A stretch of 64,000 bases of DNA, taken from positions 2,728,001 to 2,792,000 of the forward strand of contig NZ_CP034593.1 in the NCBI RefSeq assembly GCF_003971195.1, read 5' to 3'. This DNA comes from Flaviflexus ciconiae. GTDB taxonomy: Bacteria; Actinomycetota; Actinomycetes; Actinomycetales; Actinomycetaceae. The notes beneath the pieces were generated by a model. The model searched no databases. It saw only the letters and a list, made by a program, of their open reading frames with translations, and was not told the origin of the DNA. Position numbers and translations under genes: made by a program. Of the stretch, positions 5,107-39,363 are shown piece after piece (position 1 is the stretch's first letter; each line of letters opens with the position of its first letter).

Positions 5107-6047
5107 GTGAAAGTTGCCGGTATTGATTGTGGAACCAACTCTATTCGCCTCCTGATTGCGGATGTGGAGCCAGGTAAGCCCCTTGTTGACGTTGTTCGTG
5201 CCATGGAGGTCGTTCGGCTCGGCCAGGGTGTCGATACGACCGGGAAGTTTGCCGAGGAGGCGCTGGAGCGTACCTTTGCGGCCACCGAACGTTATGCGGC
5301 ACTGTGCGAAGAGCACGGAGTTCAAGCAATCAAGTTCGTTGCCACCTCGGCAACCCGCGATGCTGAGAACCGCGAGCTCTTTATCGACGGCATCCGTTCC
5401 CGTCTTGGGGTCACCCCGGAAGTAGTTTCTGGTGACCGCGAGGCTCAGCTGTCGTTCTTCGGTGCTGCCTCCGTGATCGACATCTCTGCCCCCGTAGCCG
5501 TTGTTGATCTCGGGGAGGATCCACCGAGATCGTCCTTGGCTCGAAGGCAGAAGGCGTTATCGGCGCGTGGTCAATGAACGTTGGATGTGTCCGCATGCAG
5601 GAACGACACCTCCAAACCGACCCGCCCACGGAACAACAGATCGAGGCGGCACGCGTTGATATTCGGGCCGCACTTGATGAGGCCACCAAACATGTTGACC
5701 TGCGCCGCGCAACCCGCCTCATCGGCCTTGCTGGCACGGTAACGACGGTGACGGCACGTGCGCTCGGTCTTCCCGCCTATGATCCCGATGCAATCGATGG
5801 AACAGAGCTCACGGTCGACCAGGTCATTGAGGCCTGCACGTGGCTCATGACCGCAACCAGGGATGAACGTGCCGCCGAGGGCTACATGCACCCGGGCCGT
5901 GTTGACGTGATCGCCTCCGGTGCCCTCGTGTGGTCGGAAGTCGTCAAGAGGTGCCAGGAAGACATGGTGTCACTCCCGGTCGTCACCACCTCAGAGCACG
6001 ACATTCTGGACGGGATCGCCCTGTGGGCGGCAGGGGCACTCTCGTAG
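5107..6047 (+). CDS. Ppx/GppA family phosphatase (exopolyphosphatase), frameshifted
   Basis: Enzyme of the ASKHA fold that hydrolyses polyphosphate or pppGpp. The N-terminal half shows the phosphate-1 loop VAGIDCGTNSIRLLIADV and VATSATRDAENREL. Then the frame is lost at 5512-5515. The conserved DLGGGSTEI loop would need five G residues, but four are present, so the frame reads DLGEDPPR and stops at 5577. In the next frame the protein resumes with GGSTEIVLGSKAEGVIGAWSMNVG and runs through LIGLAGTVTTVTA and YMHPGRVDVIASGA to 6047. Taken together this is a full-length family member of about 313 residues. The one-base loss in a G-run may be a sequencing error. The GTG at 5107 lacks a clear ribosome-binding site, so the message may be leaderless. 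Choice between Ppx and GppA cannot be made. Confidence 0.88.
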
Positions 6048-6257: not shown

Positions 6258-8162
6258 CTAGGCGGTGATCTTCTCGCTTGTGACGTCAGCCGGTGCCGCG
6301 GTGACCGCGTCTTCCTTCAGGGTGGGGCGGAGGAGCATCATGGCGATGGCGATGACGAGAAGCACGGAGGCTTCGTGGACCAGCATGCCGATCGACATGG
6401 TCACTCCGCCGAGCAGTACTCCGAGAAGGAGCAGGGCAACAACAACGAGTGCGACTGTGATGTTGAGGCGCATGGTACCGACCGTTCGCTTGGCAAGGCC
6501 GAAGGCGTAGGGGAGGCGGGGCAGACGGTCTGCCATAAGAGCCAGGTCCGCCGTTTCGATCGCGGCGGGGGAGCCAGCTGCACCCATGGCCACACCAACA
6601 TTGGCCGTTGCCAGAGCCGGGGTGTCGTTCACACCGTCACCGACCATGGCCACCGTGCGTCCAGAGGCCTGGAGTTCCTTGACGATCGTGAGCTTGTCTT
6701 CCGGCATGAGCTCAGCACGTACCTCATCCACTCCGAGCTGCTTCGCCACGTTGTCGGCTACTCGCTGAGCATCGCCCGTTGCCATGACAACCCTGATGCC
6801 CTTGTCCTGCAGCTCCTTCACCGCAACCAGAGCGTCGTCCCTCACCGTGTCGGCAACTGCGACGATACCGATAGCGCGACCATCGAGGCCCACGAACATT
6901 GCGGTGCGGCCGCGCTCGTTCAGTTCCAGGATTCGTGACTGGTCCGCGACGTCGTTAAGAAGTTTTGCGGAGCCAACGGCAACGACTCGACCATCAACGT
7001 CGGCCCGGATACCCTGGCCGGCAATCGGCTCGGCCAGTTCAACCGGCTCGACGACCAGGCCGCGGTTCTTGGCGCCGCGGATAATTGCGTCGGCAAGGGG
7101 GTGCTCGGAGGCAGTTTCAGCGCGTGCCGCAAGGAGAAGAATGTCGTCTTGCGTGTAGGCAGGGTCCAGCGATTCAACATCCGTGAGCTCCGGCCTACCG
7201 TTCGTCAGGGTGCCCGTCTTATCAACAACAACGGTGTCGACCCTGGCAGCGGTCTCCAAGTATTCGCCGCCCTTGATGAGGACGCCGTCCTTTGCGGCGC
7301 GTCCGATGCCGGCAACGATCGAGACCGGGATCGAGATAACGAGAGCGCCGGGGCAACCGATGACAAGGAGGGTCAGAGCAAGCTCAACGTTCTGGGTGAC
7401 CAGACCGATGATGAGAGCGAAAATCATGACGCCCGGGGTGTACCAGGCGGAGAACTTCTCCATGAAGGTCTGCGTCTTTGCCTTGTCATCCTGAGCGTCC
7501 TCGACGCGGTGGATGATCTTTGCAAGCGTGGAGTCAGAACCAATGCCCACGGCTTCGATACGGAGCAGACCTGCCCTCAGCCAGGTTCCCGCAAACACCT
7601 GAGAACCGGCAGACTTCTCGGCAGGGACGGATTCACCCGTGATCTGCGCTTCGTCGACACCGCCGTTACCGCTAATAACCGTGCCATCAACCGGCACCTG
7701 CTCGCCGTTCTTGACGATCACCGTGTCGCCGGGCTCAAGCTCCCACAGCTCCACAGTTTCCGTGGTGCCATCGGCATTCAGCTTCGTTGCGGTTTCCGGG
7801 GCAGCATCAACCAGGTCGCTGAGCGCCTGCCTCGTCTTGTTGAGAGTGGCCTTCTCCAGTGCGTTACCGAGTGCGAACAGGAAGGTGACAGCGGCGGCTT
7901 CCCACCAGTTCTGCAGGATCATGGCGCCGATGGCGGCGACTGACACAAGCAGGTCAATGGACACCATCTTGATGCGGAGAGCCTGAATAGCGGACCAGGC
8001 GATCTGGTAGCCGGCAACAACCGTTGCCACAATCATGAGGATATCGGGCGTACCAAACGACTCGGTGTCCTGACCAGTAATATCGGCCCCCGCGATAAGA
8101 GCAACGATGATGAGGAGGCCAGATACGATGACCACTCCCCATGTCTTCCACAGTGATTTCAT
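6258..8162 (-). CDS. Heavy-metal P1B-type ATPase with a CPG membrane motif
   Basis: Membrane pump that drives a transition-metal ion out of the cell with ATP. The 634-residue protein has no N-terminal metal-binding domain. It shows about eight membrane helices, the actuator TGES loop (about residue 176), CPG in the transport helix (about 270-272), the phosphorylation site DKTGTLT (about 314), SEHPL, and GDGVNDTPAL. Most P1B pumps have CPC or SPC at the membrane site, so CPG is unusual and the metal cannot be named. A start at TTG 8174 is possible, but GAAGGA lies just before ATG 8162. The promoter carries an FNR-type palindrome, as does that of the HMA protein upstream, which probably delivers the same metal. 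Confidence 0.92.
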   Translation of the reverse strand: MKSLWKTWGVVIVSGLLIIVALIAGADITGQDTESFGTPDILMIVATVVAGYQIAWSAIQALRIKMVSIDLLVSVAAIGAMILQNWWEAAAVTFLFALGNALEKATLNKTRQALSDLVDAAPETATKLNADGTTETVELWELEPGDTVIVKNGEQVPVDGTVISGNGGVDEAQITGESVPAEKSAGSQVFAGTWLRAGLLRIEAVGIGSDSTLAKIIHRVEDAQDDKAKTQTFMEKFSAWYTPGVMIFALIIGLVTQNVELALTLLVIGCPGALVISIPVSIVAGIGRAAKDGVLIKGGEYLETAARVDTVVVDKTGTLTNGRPELTDVESLDPAYTQDDILLLAARAETASEHPLADAIIRGAKNRGLVVEPVELAEPIAGQGIRADVDGRVVAVGSAKLLNDVADQSRILELNERGRTAMFVGLDGRAIGIVAVADTVRDDALVAVKELQDKGIRVVMATGDAQRVADNVAKQLGVDEVRAELMPEDKLTIVKELQASGRTVAMVGDGVNDTPALATANVGVAMGAAGSPAAIETADLALMADRLPRLPYAFGLAKRTVGTMRLNITVALVVVALLLLGVLLGGVTMSIGMLVHEASVLLVIAIAMMLLRPTLKEDAVTAAPADVTSEKITA

Positions 8163-8202
8163 TGTGTCCTTCAATTCGTTCGAAACTGCCTTGTTACTAC
8201 CT

Positions 8203-8244
8203 AAGCTATGAGTTTCCGTTTCCCATCTCCTTGACCTGGATCAA
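8203..8244 (-). promoter_or_regulatory. FNR-type promoter of the metal ATPase
   Basis: The palindrome TTGACCTGGATCAA (8231-8244) fits the CRP/FNR half-site pattern TTGAT-N4-ATCAA at nine of ten positions. On the minus strand a -10 hexamer TAGCTT (8208 down to 8203) begins exactly 22 nt downstream. This puts the box centre near -41.5, the position of a class II activator. The same spacing is found at two other promoters in the window. Confidence 0.65.
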
Positions 8245-8361
8245 CCCGAGCATCGAGGACTTTTCACCCTAGATTGCAAGGAATTGTCCTGCTTGTGGCT
8301 ACCGGTGATATCACGGAGGGAGCGCTGCTTCTCGGTCCAATGACGCTTTGCTCAACAGAAG

Positions 8362-8390
8362 AGCGGGCCACCCGGTATGGGAGGCCCGCT
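8362..8390 (-). terminator. Terminator of the HMA-protein gene
   Basis: AGCGGGCC and GGCCCGCT form a perfect 8-base stem around a 13-base loop, 15 bases beyond the stop codon of the HMA gene. Confidence 0.65.
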
Positions 8391-8404
8391 TGGCGGTCTG
8401 TGGT

Positions 8405-8641
8405 TTAGATGGCAGAGGGCTTGGCCGTGTAGCCAATCTCGGCAACAGCATTGACGAGGTCGCGAACGCCAACGGCGTCCGGGTTGTGGTCGACAATGAT
8501 GCGGCCCGAGGAGAACTTGACCTCTGCCTTCGACACGCCTTCTAGTCCGTTGAGCTTCGTTTCGATCTTGCTCACGCAGGACGGGCATGAGAACTCGTCG
8601 GAGCGGAGAGTGGTGGTCTTGTTCTTAGCTGCGGTGGTCAT
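8405..8641 (-). CDS. HMA-domain metal-binding protein (CopZ-like)
   Basis: Small cytosolic metallochaperone of 78 residues. It consists of one heavy-metal-associated ferredoxin-like domain with the metal site FSCPSCVSKIE (CxxC, residues about 19-22). VEGVSKAEVKF-like and VNAVAEIGYTA segments follow, as expected for the fold. It lies just upstream of the P1B ATPase, which itself lacks such a domain, so the two probably form a carrier-and-pump pair. AAGGA precedes the ATG. Its own promoter carries the same FNR-type palindrome as the ATPase promoter, and the terminator at 8362-8390 separates the two transcripts. CPSC rather than the copper-typical CxGC motif leaves the metal open. Confidence 0.88.
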   Translation of the reverse strand: MTTAAKNKTTTLRSDEFSCPSCVSKIETKLNGLEGVSKAEVKFSSGRIIVDHNPDAVGVRDLVNAVAEIGYTAKPSAI

Positions 8642-8694
8642 GGTGTAATTTCCTTGTCTCCGGGCTGGGTTTCGACCCGGCTTGATTAACCATG

Positions 8695-8736
8695 ACTTTA
8701 TGGAAAGTGCAGGCTTCGTTCCTTGACCTGGATCAA
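8695..8736 (-). promoter_or_regulatory. FNR-type promoter of the HMA-protein gene
   Basis: The palindrome TTGACCTGGATCAA (8723-8736) is identical to the one before the ATPase. A -10 hexamer TAAAGT (8700 down to 8695) starts exactly 22 nt downstream on the minus strand, again placing the box at about -41.5. Confidence 0.65.
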
Positions 8737-8819
8737 GCGATGGACACGAAGCCGTGGTGGTATTCCTGGCCGGCGATCTAAGGGTGTCGTTGAGGAAAAA
8801 ACGCTGTTTGAGGAAAGAA

Positions 8820-11320: not shown

Positions 11321-12535
11321 CTAATCGAGCAATGTTTCGCCAATGTAGCCACCTTCGGAGCATCCGGGTGGGATTGCGAAAACGGAGGAACCAACCGGCG
11401 TGGTCCAAAGGTTGAGCATGTCGAGCTCGTCGAGACGCTGCTGGATCGGGACGAACTGTTTGTCCACATCTGCTTGGAAGGCGGCAAAGACTTGCCCAGC
11501 GTTTGAAGCTGTGGCCGTATCCTGTTCTCCCTCATAGTTGTAGGCGCGGCGAAAAATGACCTCGTCGGGATTGTCGCTGCGGGCCCTGCGGACGTGGGCG
11601 TAGTCGGCGATGATGGGAAAACCGAACTCGTTCACGGCCTCGAAGTCCGGTTCGTCCAACTCCGCACCACCCGTGAGGGGAGCGCCCGTACCCATGGTGC
11701 GCCCGACCGACTGTTCCCTGCCGGGGCGATCTATCTCATCCCACCCCTCCAAATCCATGTCGATACGGCGGATAACAAGACCGGTTCCGCCCGTGAGCCA
11801 ACCATCCTGCGACCACACCACCCGGTCAAACTCTTCGGTTCCCGGAGCTGGATTAACCGTGCCATCGAGCTGGCCAAATAAGTTCCTCATTGTGAGCCCA
11901 ACCTTCTCGGAACCGTGGGCCCGCCGGAAACCCTTCTGCGTCCATCGCAGTGATGCGAAGGTGCGAACATCCTTGAGGAGCATCCTGGAAGCGTGCGAGA
12001 CAGTCAGGGGATCGTCAGCGGCAACTTGGATGAGGAAATCACCATCGGACCACGAGGGCTGGAGCCGGTCGATTGTGAACTCGGGAAGAGGCTTTAGCCA
12101 GGGCGGGACGGCGCTCGGATCGGCTCGGCGTACAAACTCGGGTCCGAATCCGAAGGTGATGGTGAGCCGTGCCGGGACTTCGGCGAGTTCCGGTTCTGAG
12201 TCCGCGAGAGCGGCCCTGCCCTGAGTCAGCCGCGCACCATCATCGGTCAGTAACCTCATCATTCGCCGCAGACCTTCCCGGTCCACGTCATCGAGCAGGT
12301 CGAATCCGTAGAACGTGGCATGCGCCTGCGGTGCGGTGGCAATGCCGGCCTGGTGGGTACCGTAGAACGGTTCCGTCTGTTCCCCGTGCGTAGCGGGTTG
12401 AGTCGATGATGGGCTGGTGCTGACGGCACGATCAATGCCGATAGCTGCCGCGGCCCCAAGACCGGCTGCGCCACCCAACAGTAGCCCGCGCCGAGAGAGG
12501 TTCCTTGGCTGATCAGTCAGTTCGTTATTCTTCAT
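11321..12535 (-). CDS. DyP-type haem peroxidase (EfeB-like), Tat-exported
   Basis: Haem peroxidase of the dye-decolourising family, predicted to act outside the membrane. The N-terminus carries a twin-arginine signal, LSRRGLLLGGAAGLGAAAAIG. The mature part of about 360 residues has the diagnostic GxxDG motif (GQLDGT), the haem-side segment MRNLFGQ, and the C-terminal RRAYNYEGEQ and FAAFQADVDKQFVPIQQRL segments. In EfeUOB systems such enzymes help release or import iron, but here efeU and efeO are absent. The start codon overlaps the stop of the PCuAC gene (ATGA), so both are made together, which suggests a link to copper handling. Substrate is unknown. Confidence 0.9.
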   Translation of the reverse strand: MKNNELTDQPRNLSRRGLLLGGAAGLGAAAAIGIDRAVSTSPSSTQPATHGEQTEPFYGTHQAGIATAPQAHATFYGFDLLDDVDREGLRRMMRLLTDDGARLTQGRAALADSEPELAEVPARLTITFGFGPEFVRRADPSAVPPWLKPLPEFTIDRLQPSWSDGDFLIQVAADDPLTVSHASRMLLKDVRTFASLRWTQKGFRRAHGSEKVGLTMRNLFGQLDGTVNPAPGTEEFDRVVWSQDGWLTGGTGLVIRRIDMDLEGWDEIDRPGREQSVGRTMGTGAPLTGGAELDEPDFEAVNEFGFPIIADYAHVRRARSDNPDEVIFRRAYNYEGEQDTATASNAGQVFAAFQADVDKQFVPIQQRLDELDMLNLWTTPVGSSVFAIPPGCSEGGYIGETLLD

Positions 12536-13029
12536 TGCGAGTCGTGATAGGTCTCGTTTGCTCCCGTGTATTCCTTACCGATTGCCTCAAACTCGAAGGT
12601 GGAACCATCGTCGAGCGTGACGACGAATGTCACGGCATCTCCGGCAATAACGGGCTCGGTCAATCCGACAAGCATGAGGTGATGACCGCCGGGCTCAAGG
12701 ACAAGCTCCTCTTCGGGCTCAATCGTGAAGCCGCCGGAAATCTCCTGCATGCTCATCGTGCCGTCAGTTCCCATCACCATCTCGTGCATCTCCACGGTCT
12801 CCGACTTGTCGGAAGTGACTGAGGTGATAACGATTGGTTCGCTCTGCGAATGGGAAATGATCCCAAAGGCACTCGTCATGTTCTCATCGCCGGCCTTCAC
12901 CCAGGCATCGACAACCTCGATCTGATCGGTAGCGCCCGCCGATGCTTCGGTGTCTGCGTCGCCGTTGGAGCAGGAAGTAAGAGCGAATGCGGCAGTGAGA
13001 GCCGCGGCGAACCTCAGCGTTCTTGACAT
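12532..13029 (-). CDS. PCuAC-type copper chaperone lipoprotein
   Basis: Extracytoplasmic copper chaperone of 165 residues, first gene of a two-gene unit with the DyP peroxidase. A lipoprotein signal ends in ALTSC (cysteine about residue 20). The PCuAC copper site is visible as VEMHEMVMG followed by M(S)MQEI and GGHHLMLVGL, matching the family pattern of one His-Met set and a second His-x-Met set. Family members hand Cu(I) to cytochrome oxidase or other cuproenzymes. GAAGGAG lies ten bases before the ATG. Nothing in the window shows which oxidase would be served. Confidence 0.88.
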   Translation of the reverse strand: MSRTLRFAAALTAAFALTSCSNGDADTEASAGATDQIEVVDAWVKAGDENMTSAFGIISHSQSEPIVITSVTSDKSETVEMHEMVMGTDGTMSMQEISGGFTIEPEEELVLEPGGHHLMLVGLTEPVIAGDAVTFVVTLDDGSTFEFEAIGKEYTGANETYHDSQ

Positions 13030-38198: not shown

Positions 38199-38459
38199 CT
38201 AGAGAGCTCTCGTGTTTTCTTGGTCGGCTGCCTTGAGTGAGGCGTACGTGCCCTGGTATGCCTCGCAACCATCGGCGGGAACCGTGTAATTGTTGGTGAC
38301 CGTGCGAAGCTCCGCAAAGAAGGCGTCTTTGTCGGAGGGGCTCTCGGCGCCTGCAATGGCTTCGGTTAGTTCACGGACCCGTGTGAGCTCGGGGTGGTTC
38401 GCGCCGTGAACGCGCTCAATAAGTGGTGCAAGCTTGGTTGCTTCGTCAAGGGCAGGCAT
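38199..38459 (-). CDS. Degenerate RIC/ScdA-like (hemerythrin-fold) protein
   Basis: Small protein of 86 residues. LAPLIERVHGANHPELTRVREL and YTVPADGCEAYQGTYASL resemble two parts of the hemerythrin-like domain of di-iron RIC (ScdA/YtfE) proteins, which repair nitric-oxide-damaged iron-sulfur clusters. The His and Glu residues that hold the two irons are mostly absent, and the protein stops soon after the second block. It may therefore be a regulatory or decayed version. ATG 38459 follows GGAGA by five bases. The promoter carries an FNR-type palindrome, as do known nitrosative-stress genes. The family assignment is tentative. Confidence 0.5.
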   Translation of the reverse strand: MPALDEATKLAPLIERVHGANHPELTRVRELTEAIAGAESPSDKDAFFAELRTVTNNYTVPADGCEAYQGTYASLKAADQENTRAL

Positions 38460-38497: not shown

Positions 38498-38539
38498 AGA
38501 ATATGAGCTCCTCCCATAGGAGTCATTGACCTGCATCAA
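38498..38539 (-). promoter_or_regulatory. FNR-type promoter of the RIC-like gene
   Basis: The palindrome TTGACCTGCATCAA (38526-38539) differs at one base from the boxes at 8.2 and 8.7 kb. A -10 hexamer TATTCT (38503 down to 38498) begins exactly 22 nt downstream on the minus strand, the same spacing as at the other two promoters. Confidence 0.65.
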
Positions 38540-38729: not shown

Positions 38730-39148
38730 ATGATGGTGACTGTGACTGATACGCAACCAAACCCGAGACGGGCTGAAGAGATCGTTGATCGGCTCAAGGT
38801 ATCTGGAGCTCTGGACGAGCTGTTCGCGAAGATTGATTCTGGTGAGGTTGAGCTGACCGGTGATGGTGGACTCGTGCCTGCCCTGATCAAGGAAACTCTC
38901 GAGCGTGGCCTGCAGGCTGAGATGACTTCGCATCTGGGTTATGCCGCGGGCGATCGTGAAGCGAAGACCACGACAAACGTACGCAATGGTTCGTACCCGA
39001 AGACGGTAGCCTCAGATGTCGGCGACCTTGAGATCATGGTGCCCCGCGACCGGGATGGGTTGTTCACACCGCGGCTGGTGCCCAAAGGCAACCGGCGGCT
39101 GGGCGGGCTTGATGACATGATCATCAGTTTGTATGCGGGCGGGATGAC
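38730..39148 (+). pseudogene. IS256-family (Mutator) transposase, 3' truncated
   Basis: N-terminal third of a Mutator-type transposase. The sequence includes GDGGLVPALIKETLERGLQAEMTSHLGYAAGDREAK, NGSYPKTVASDVGDLEIMVPRDRDGLFTPRLVPK and DDMIISLYAGGMT. These precede the catalytic DDE region in intact proteins of about 400 residues. At about 39148 the reading leaves the transposase and enters a flavoprotein gene on the opposite strand. The element thus lost its catalytic part and its right end, so it cannot move by itself. GAAAGGA lies near the ATG. Confidence 0.85.
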
Positions 39149-39363
39149 GGGTCGATGCCCTTTCCCTGCATGAGGCGCGCCCCGTCGACGATCTCTGCCC
39201 CGCGGCGGAGGATCTTCTTCGGGTCACAGCCTCGAAGCACGCACGTCCCGCCATAGGACAGGCTGTCGACGATGGCGACTCGCCATCCCTCCTTCGCGCA
39301 TGCAGTTGCTGCAGTGGATCCGGCAGTGCCGGTGCCGATGACGATGAGGTGGGAGTCCGTCAC
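39149..39363 (-). pseudogene. N-terminal fragment of a mercuric-reductase-like flavoprotein
   Basis: Fragment of a pyridine-nucleotide disulfide oxidoreductase. LIVIGTGTAGSTAATACAKEGWRVAIVD is the FAD-binding Rossmann motif, and GGTCVLRGCDPKKIL carries the redox-active disulfide in the form seen in mercuric-reductase-like enzymes. The GTG start at 39363 is intact. After about 70 residues the gene is cut where the IS256 remnant begins (39148). About 85 percent of the expected protein is absent from the window. Confidence 0.75.

Follow-up and report, generated by a model that had tools for sequence, protein, structure and literature searches.

Predicted class II FNR-type promoters of a P1B metal ATPase and its HMA carrier in Flaviflexus ciconiae, and an FLP-like candidate regulator encoded elsewhere in the genome

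Identical FNR-type palindromes precede the genes of a heavy-metal ATPase and of an HMA metal-carrier protein in Flaviflexus ciconiae, and a related one precedes a small RIC-like gene. These boxes are very probably class II (-41.5) sites of a single FLP-like activator of the CRP/FNR family, here called REG, which is encoded outside the window, that is, the whole stretch of 64,000 nucleotides that was analysed (bases 2728001-2792000 of the single contig, 2.83 Mb long, that makes up the genome). The evidence observed for this reading consists of the layout and conservation of the sites, gene linkage, the family of the regulator and the conservation of its cysteines. The features of the window are the following, all on the - strand.

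6258..8162, - strand: CPG-type P1B heavy-metal ATPase, 634 aa (TIGR01525 556.9 bits and TIGR01512 479.5 bits, above cut-off)
8203..8208, - strand: -10 hexamer TAGCTT of the putative ATPase promoter, starting exactly 22 nt past the box; position kept in relatives
8231..8244, - strand: FNR-type box of the putative ATPase promoter, reading TTGATCCAGGTCAA on this strand
8362..8390, - strand: terminator-like hairpin between the HMA and ATPase genes (8350-8396 folds at -23.9 kcal/mol, z -2.82, 4/200 shuffles as good)
8405..8641, - strand: HMA metal-carrier protein, 78 aa, with FSCPSC (PF00403 7.6e-13; NF041115 56.8 bits, below the cut-off of 95)
8695..8700, - strand: -10 hexamer TAAAGT of the putative HMA promoter, starting exactly 22 nt past the box
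8723..8736, - strand: FNR-type box of the putative HMA promoter, matching both the box pattern and the composite pattern
38199..38459, - strand: protein related to the end of RIC/ScdA, 86 aa (TIGR03652 2.9e-9, 37.1 bits against a cut-off of 204.7)
38498..38503, - strand: -10 hexamer TATTCT of the putative RIC-like promoter, exactly 22 nt past the box
38526..38539, - strand: FNR-type box of the putative RIC-like promoter, TTGACCTGCATCAA, reading TTGATGCAGGTCAA on this strand

The initial annotation described identical 14-bp palindromes upstream of the ATPase and HMA genes, and TTGACCTGGATCAA was indeed found at 8231-8244 and 8723-8736; both genes lie on the - strand, on which its sequence is TTGATCCAGGTCAA. 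The TANNNT hexamers claimed exactly 22 nt downstream were recovered on the same strand (TAGCTT and TAAAGT), and nine of the ten half-site positions fit TTGAT-N4-ATCAA as had been stated. A third box (38526-38539) has the same layout in front of the 86-aa RIC-like gene. In class II promoters of E. coli FNR the box is centred at -41.5, and the arrangement found here is like theirs, with a TTGAT-N4-ATCAA-type box and a -10 hexamer 22 nt downstream; counted from the predicted transcript start, the box centre would also fall at -41.5. A sigma-70 scan of 8100-8800 gave no promoter against 0.2 expected, which has little weight either way, and the absence of a -35/-10 pair from both promoters would be in keeping with dependence on an activator. 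A tRNA was the sole match in an Rfam search of the window.

Taken without the hexamer, the box is weak evidence in the window, where it occurs five times with up to one mismatch against 2.7 expected, a number reached in 9 of 100 shuffles. Across the genome TTGAY-N4-RTCAA had 11 occurrences and the reversed pattern 3. The whole-genome search for the box with TANNNT that had been proposed as a check was carried out, and the exact composite pattern (box, 22 nt, TANNNT) gave four matches with none in the reversed control. These four are the promoters of the ATPase, HMA and RIC-like genes and of REG, with no others in the genome, the remaining seven of the 11 palindromes (L004-L007, L009-L011) being without TANNNT at 22 nt on either strand. 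When one mismatch was allowed in the composite pattern, six matches were obtained against five in the control, so that the extra two sites are chance-like and no convincing further site emerged. Across 151 genomes of the family the composite pattern matched 26 times against 11 in the reversed control.

As far as it was searched, the window holds no CRP/FNR regulator, in agreement with the initial annotation, and both Crp-type HTH matches over cut-off lie outside it. The search of the whole genome for regulators of this family identified REG (G000:C1:2227172-2227870), which is unlinked to its putative targets, the distance to the ATPase and HMA genes being about 508 kb. With 67.4 bits for PF00027 and 63.9 bits for PF13545, both above cut-off, it belongs to the CRP/FNR family. 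The genome encodes three cNMP_binding proteins and two Crp-type HTH proteins over cut-off, the second of the latter being GlxR-like (SRETVNKSL helix), and REG is the sole FNR-type regulator found there. In its AlphaFold2 model (mean pLDDT 83.7) the recognition helix spans residues 195-207 and C111 lies in a strand. The helix contains PESLSRQL, i.e. E..SR, which at the start of a recognition helix is the FNR pattern; among 18 REG sequences S199 and R200 are invariant and E196 is nearly so. Helix and TTGAT-like half-sites together predict a DNA specificity of FNR type. The promoter region of REG contains TTGATCTGGATCAA followed after 22 nt by TAGTGT, and this fourth and last composite site, lying before REG, would belong to the regulator's own promoter. 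The box is about 40 nt before the open frame and 195 nt before the likely start of the 233-aa protein. An in-frame extension of 52 codons was also noticed before REG (L128, 7017-7172), with an ATG a few bases past the predicted transcription start, and REG may also exist in a longer, leaderless form that has three additional cysteines.

In the 233-aa form C13 and C111 are the only cysteines, and REG is thus without the four-cysteine 4Fe-4S motif of FNR. Both are invariant in the 18 sequences and kept in seven aligned plasmid regulators. In the FLP subfamily, one N-terminal and one beta-roll cysteine form a disulfide switch (L. casei FLP). The plasmid regulators of Bacilli that were examined have, in addition, histidine-rich N-termini.

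Orthologues of REG were found in 18 of the 151 family genomes, the source genome included, with at least 167 bits against 128 bits for the next match. The 17 other genomes were taken solely for having REG, regardless of box or hexamer. In all of them HMA, ATPase and REG genes lie on one fetched stretch with TTGAY-N4-RTCAA upstream of HMA, and T....T is found 22 nt past the box in 17/17, against 0-3 of 17 for other spacings from 14 to 30. The stricter TA...T occurs at 22 nt in only 6/17 of these relatives; the spacing to the -10 hexamer is kept as TANNNT at the four own sites and as T....T in the relatives. An alignment of 25 promoters displayed the two T's, together with a G two bases past the box, in 25/25, and low signal over most of the spacer; this set includes the four own sites and four chosen by the composite pattern, in which the T's are present by construction. 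The claim that a CRP/FNR regulator acts at -41.5 is thereby supported from three sides, namely the REG gene, the box at its own promoter and the footprinting in relatives.

Of the 44 ATPase matches in the family, REG genomes together with G033, G082 and G099 account for 20, and the other 24 lie elsewhere. Upstream DNA of 18 of these 24 loci without REG (1500 nt, 777 nt in one case) contained TTGA-N6-TCAA in 0/18, a control that is imperfect as HMA was found upstream of the ATPase in only 10/18 and, at the other eight loci, an HMA promoter may lie elsewhere. At the ten loci with HMA the DNA examined before it measured 98 nt (L087), 217 nt (L086) and 938-1275 nt (the other eight). The same-genus genomes G093, G106 and G051 have the ATPase, lack REG and have no box in the 1500 nt upstream, so that control of the ATPase by REG would not be universal. 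In G093 and G106 the RIC-like genes are preceded by a box though REG is absent; a second FNR-type regulator is present there. Composite sites were found in 9/18 REG genomes against 12/133 others (Fisher p 8e-5, ignoring relatedness). Four of these 12 (G033, G082, G099, G133) have the box before HMA-ATPase, and in G033, G082 and G133, but not in G099, the cassette has next to it another CRP/FNR protein, of about 30% identity, whose helix is ESxSR. 

Another CRP/FNR subfamily, marked by H..C at the N-terminus, was seen adjoining HMA-ATPase at L125 (6519-7160), L126 (5728-6300) and L129 (5352-6011), and further at L102 (69-950), L103 (3833-4714) and L081 (1-753). The helix is ESxSR in the four that were read whole (L125, L126, L129, L102), and an FNR-type box is present at L125, L126 and L129 and was not found at L102, L103 and L081 in the DNA examined. 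An internal TGA suspected in the ATPase match of G052 was dismissed, since this stop terminates the protein close to where the match runs out; a second ATPase match, at G015:514563, was also flagged with an internal stop.

Outside the family, relatives of REG were found at 61 loci when named genomes were scanned, in genera that include Microbacterium, Leucobacter, Brevibacterium, Nesterenkonia and Ornithinimicrobium as well as Tessaracoccus, Cryobacterium, Actinotalea and Actinomadura. An HMA match was found at 40 of them, the other 21 having none in the DNA examined, and TTGA-N6-TCAA lies at most 330 nt upstream in 39/40, L192 being the exception. Removal by hand of 16 of the 39 (13 near-copies and the family repeats L172, L173 and L185) left 23 less redundant loci; T....T is present at 22 nt in 21 of these hand-chosen loci and missing in L152 and L153, the nearer of two boxes having been taken for the count at L179. 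In Actinomadura bangladeshensis (L191) HMA and ATPase are boxed separately, as in the window. On a Microbacterium plasmid (L130) the box has one mismatch and is followed at 22 nt by TATCGT.

Relatives of a Micrococcales homologue of REG (P0091), used as the plasmid query, were found in 405 plasmid records, mostly of Enterococcus (226) and Lactococcus (60), most of the matches listed being 30-36% identical. Seven Bacilli loci were picked by hand from the 405; L195, L196 and L218 have nearly the same boxes and are not independent. ATPase and HMA are preceded by a box in 7/7. The Dps and FLP genes are separately boxed in 3/7 and immediately follow HMA in the other four. Among the boxes before ATPase, HMA, Dps or FLP, T....T was found at 22 nt in 20/20. 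No exact box was found within 250 nt of FetA and cupin near the Listeria cassette or of lgt near that of E. faecium, which gives no ground for placing these genes in the regulon.

Few neighbours besides regulator, ATPase and HMA recur at the actinobacterial loci, with a cupin at 18 of them. In the Microbacterium-type island a gene for an oxidoreductase and one for a CsoR-like protein recur, and a ZIP transporter adjoins the Microbacterium cassette. Dps lies beside the Bacilli cassettes, L131 having only a below-cut-off ferritin-like match; FetB is near the Listeria cassette and a VIT1/CCC1 gene near that of Leuconostoc. These neighbours point to metals, among which iron could be, with low confidence, the simplest common factor. 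The E. faecium cassette adjoins cadmium genes and that of S. equorum is near copper genes, which makes other metals possible.

As for the putative targets, the ATPase starts with an ATG at 8162, a TTG at 8174 overlapping the likely ribosome-binding site; the profiles were run from the TTG frame. It has CPG and HEAS motifs. ATPases beside an HMA of this kind carried CPG in every case in which the motif could be located, and most of those matched by a simple pattern had HEAS or HEGS towards the end. P1B-4 ATPases have SPC in one membrane helix and a HEGGT-like motif in another. The best solved relative by sequence is 7qbz (373 bits), which together with 7qc0 we take to represent the P1B-4 subgroup. 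In the alignment HEAS falls on the HEGS of 7qbz and CPG on its SPC, and the window ATPase departs from P1B-4 in having CPG in place of SPC. Nearly all of the actinobacterial HMA proteins carry F(S/T)CPSC, and those of the six Bacilli loci that were checked carry L(S/T)CPSC. Between the two genes, the terminator-like hairpin would fit separate transcripts, which would explain a box before each gene, and the carrier is probably transcribed separately in this genome. A scan of 8100-8800 for the terminator pattern gave one site (8373-8361) against 0.8 expected, hence no excess, and the tail of the hairpin is only moderately T-rich.

The 86-aa protein is matched by 98 proteins at E <= 0.001, and with 37.1 bits against 204.7 it is no full-length RIC/ScdA, a family that acts in the repair of iron-sulfur centres. 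In five relatives its gene is preceded by the box in 4/5 and by the exact TANNNT at 22 nt in 0/5, which makes it a less secure target than ATPase and HMA. A RIC-like gene was also observed directly upstream of a CPG-ATPase relative, physically linked to it (L203, G055:C1:126992-127219, with the ATPase at 127367-129097); that ATPase match contains one in-frame TAA.

REG resembles, by description, FLP of Lactobacillus casei, FlpA and FlpB of Lactococcus lactis and FlpS of Streptococcus suis, which are of the CRP/FNR family too, and the Bacilli plasmid relatives share its cysteine pair and its HMA and ATPase neighbours. It is unlike the FLP regulators in being actinobacterial, unlinked to its putative targets and provided with an extra, RIC-like one. 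E. coli FNR differs by its four-cysteine iron-sulfur motif and its respiration targets, whereas here no such motif is found and the targets are metal-related. According to the accessible part of a study on S. suis, Gram-positive FNR-like proteins often have two cysteines, and FlpS is presented there as an oxygen-sensing activator with two cysteines, with L. casei FLP and L. lactis FlpA discussed beside it (PMC5039431). The same part reports that the C129S substitution in FlpS left arcABC expression unaltered (PMC5039431), which argues against a simple cysteine switch in FlpS. The available sections of a survey of lactic acid bacteria list FlpA among metal-homeostasis regulons (PMC3616900), and according to those of a transcriptome study flpB has no copy of the proposed FlpA motif in its upstream region (PMC3547956). 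The cassette genes figure in a table of a paper on the Listeria plasmid pLM58, and the text of it that was available does not link them (PMC5663981). PmtA of Streptococcus suis, described in the accessible text as a ferrous iron and cobalt efflux pump (PMC7012047), can be set beside the window ATPase by this description as a metal-efflux pump of a Gram-positive. In the openly licensed literature, to the extent that its text was available, no description was found of the actinobacterial cassette or of its fixed spacing.

The same promoters and the same regulator could instead belong to a sensor of oxygen or anaerobiosis like FNR, metal export being then part of an anaerobic programme. FlpS, as an oxygen-sensing activator of arc genes in the accessible part of its study (PMC5039431), is a precedent for this, and the box and the recognition helix of REG are FNR-like. 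Such a role is nevertheless rather unlikely, given that REG has two cysteines and not the four of FNR, that the only four composite sites concern ATPase, HMA, RIC-like gene and REG, which are not anaerobic-metabolism genes, and that the recurrent partners in the relatives examined are a metal pump and a carrier, joined by Dps in Bacilli.

Assignment of the boxes to the CRP-type GlxR in place of REG would draw on the presence of a GlxR-like protein in the genome and on the fact that both are CRP/FNR proteins that bind related palindromes. This is highly improbable and was ruled out by helix and distribution: the GlxR-like helix is without the E..SR pattern, 145/151 genomes match REG at E <= 1e-20 and those examined below the 167-to-128-bit gap are GlxR-like, whereas the boxes track REG, as the unequal share of composite sites between REG genomes and others indicates. 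Least credible of all is that the palindromes are due to chance or are sites for a metal regulator of MerR, ArsR or CsoR type. The near-chance frequency of the box alone in the window would be in line with it. However, four composite matches against none in the control rule out chance for the composite site, and the spacing is kept in 17/17 relatives while the spacers are otherwise largely unconserved. MerR sites, moreover, lie between -35 and -10 and are not centred at -41.5.

The mechanism that follows, in which REG binds the boxes directly and activates instead of repressing, is an inference, as are its signal and its metal. By analogy with known class II promoters, a REG dimer would sit directly upstream of RNA polymerase and contact it, and REG would activate three genes (CPG-type P1B ATPase, CPSC HMA carrier, small RIC-like protein) and its own; conservation of a site would in principle also be compatible with repression. 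In the proposal that such a regulator switches on metal export, the regulator and the geometry are supported, activation is suggested by the geometry and export by the families of the ATPase and the HMA protein; the signals named there, oxygen, nitric oxide or a metal, may each be the right one, as may thiol redox. Conserved from actinobacteria to Bacilli, C13 and C111 would be the likeliest sensing site, either by binding metal or by a change in thiol redox state. When a metal, perhaps ferrous iron, or oxidative stress rises, the module would serve to remove that metal. Dps on the Bacilli plasmids and the RIC-like protein here suggest as a hypothesis that the signal is ferrous iron, or iron plus peroxide.

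CRP/FNR proteins are, to our knowledge, not usually counted among metal-efflux regulators. It is conceivable, if somewhat doubtful, that REG-type proteins are direct metal sensors of this family that activate a CPG-type P1B ATPase and a CPSC carrier; the two cysteines, plus the histidine-rich N-terminus of the Bacilli forms examined, would be in keeping with it. If true, this would be a class of direct metal sensors common to Actinomycetota and Bacillota and outside ArsR, MerR, CsoR, Fur and DtxR. A widespread metal-pump cassette thereby gains a candidate regulator, a site and a promoter geometry.

Some other features were observed in the window. Genes for a DyP-type peroxidase and a PCu(A)C copper chaperone are neighbours at 11321-13029, about 2.6 kb from the HMA promoter, and no match to TTGAC-N4-ATCAA with up to one mismatch was found in this region. 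By reading, an mfd-like frame at 15-1294 is seemingly split over two overlapping ORFs (15-548 and 545-1294), and so is a Ppx/GppA-like gene at 5107-6047 (5107-5577 and 5574-6047), the latter by a real frameshift or a sequencing error. Finally, just past the RIC-like promoter, a frame at about 38731-39157 resembles, by eye, a cut-off IS256-type transposase.
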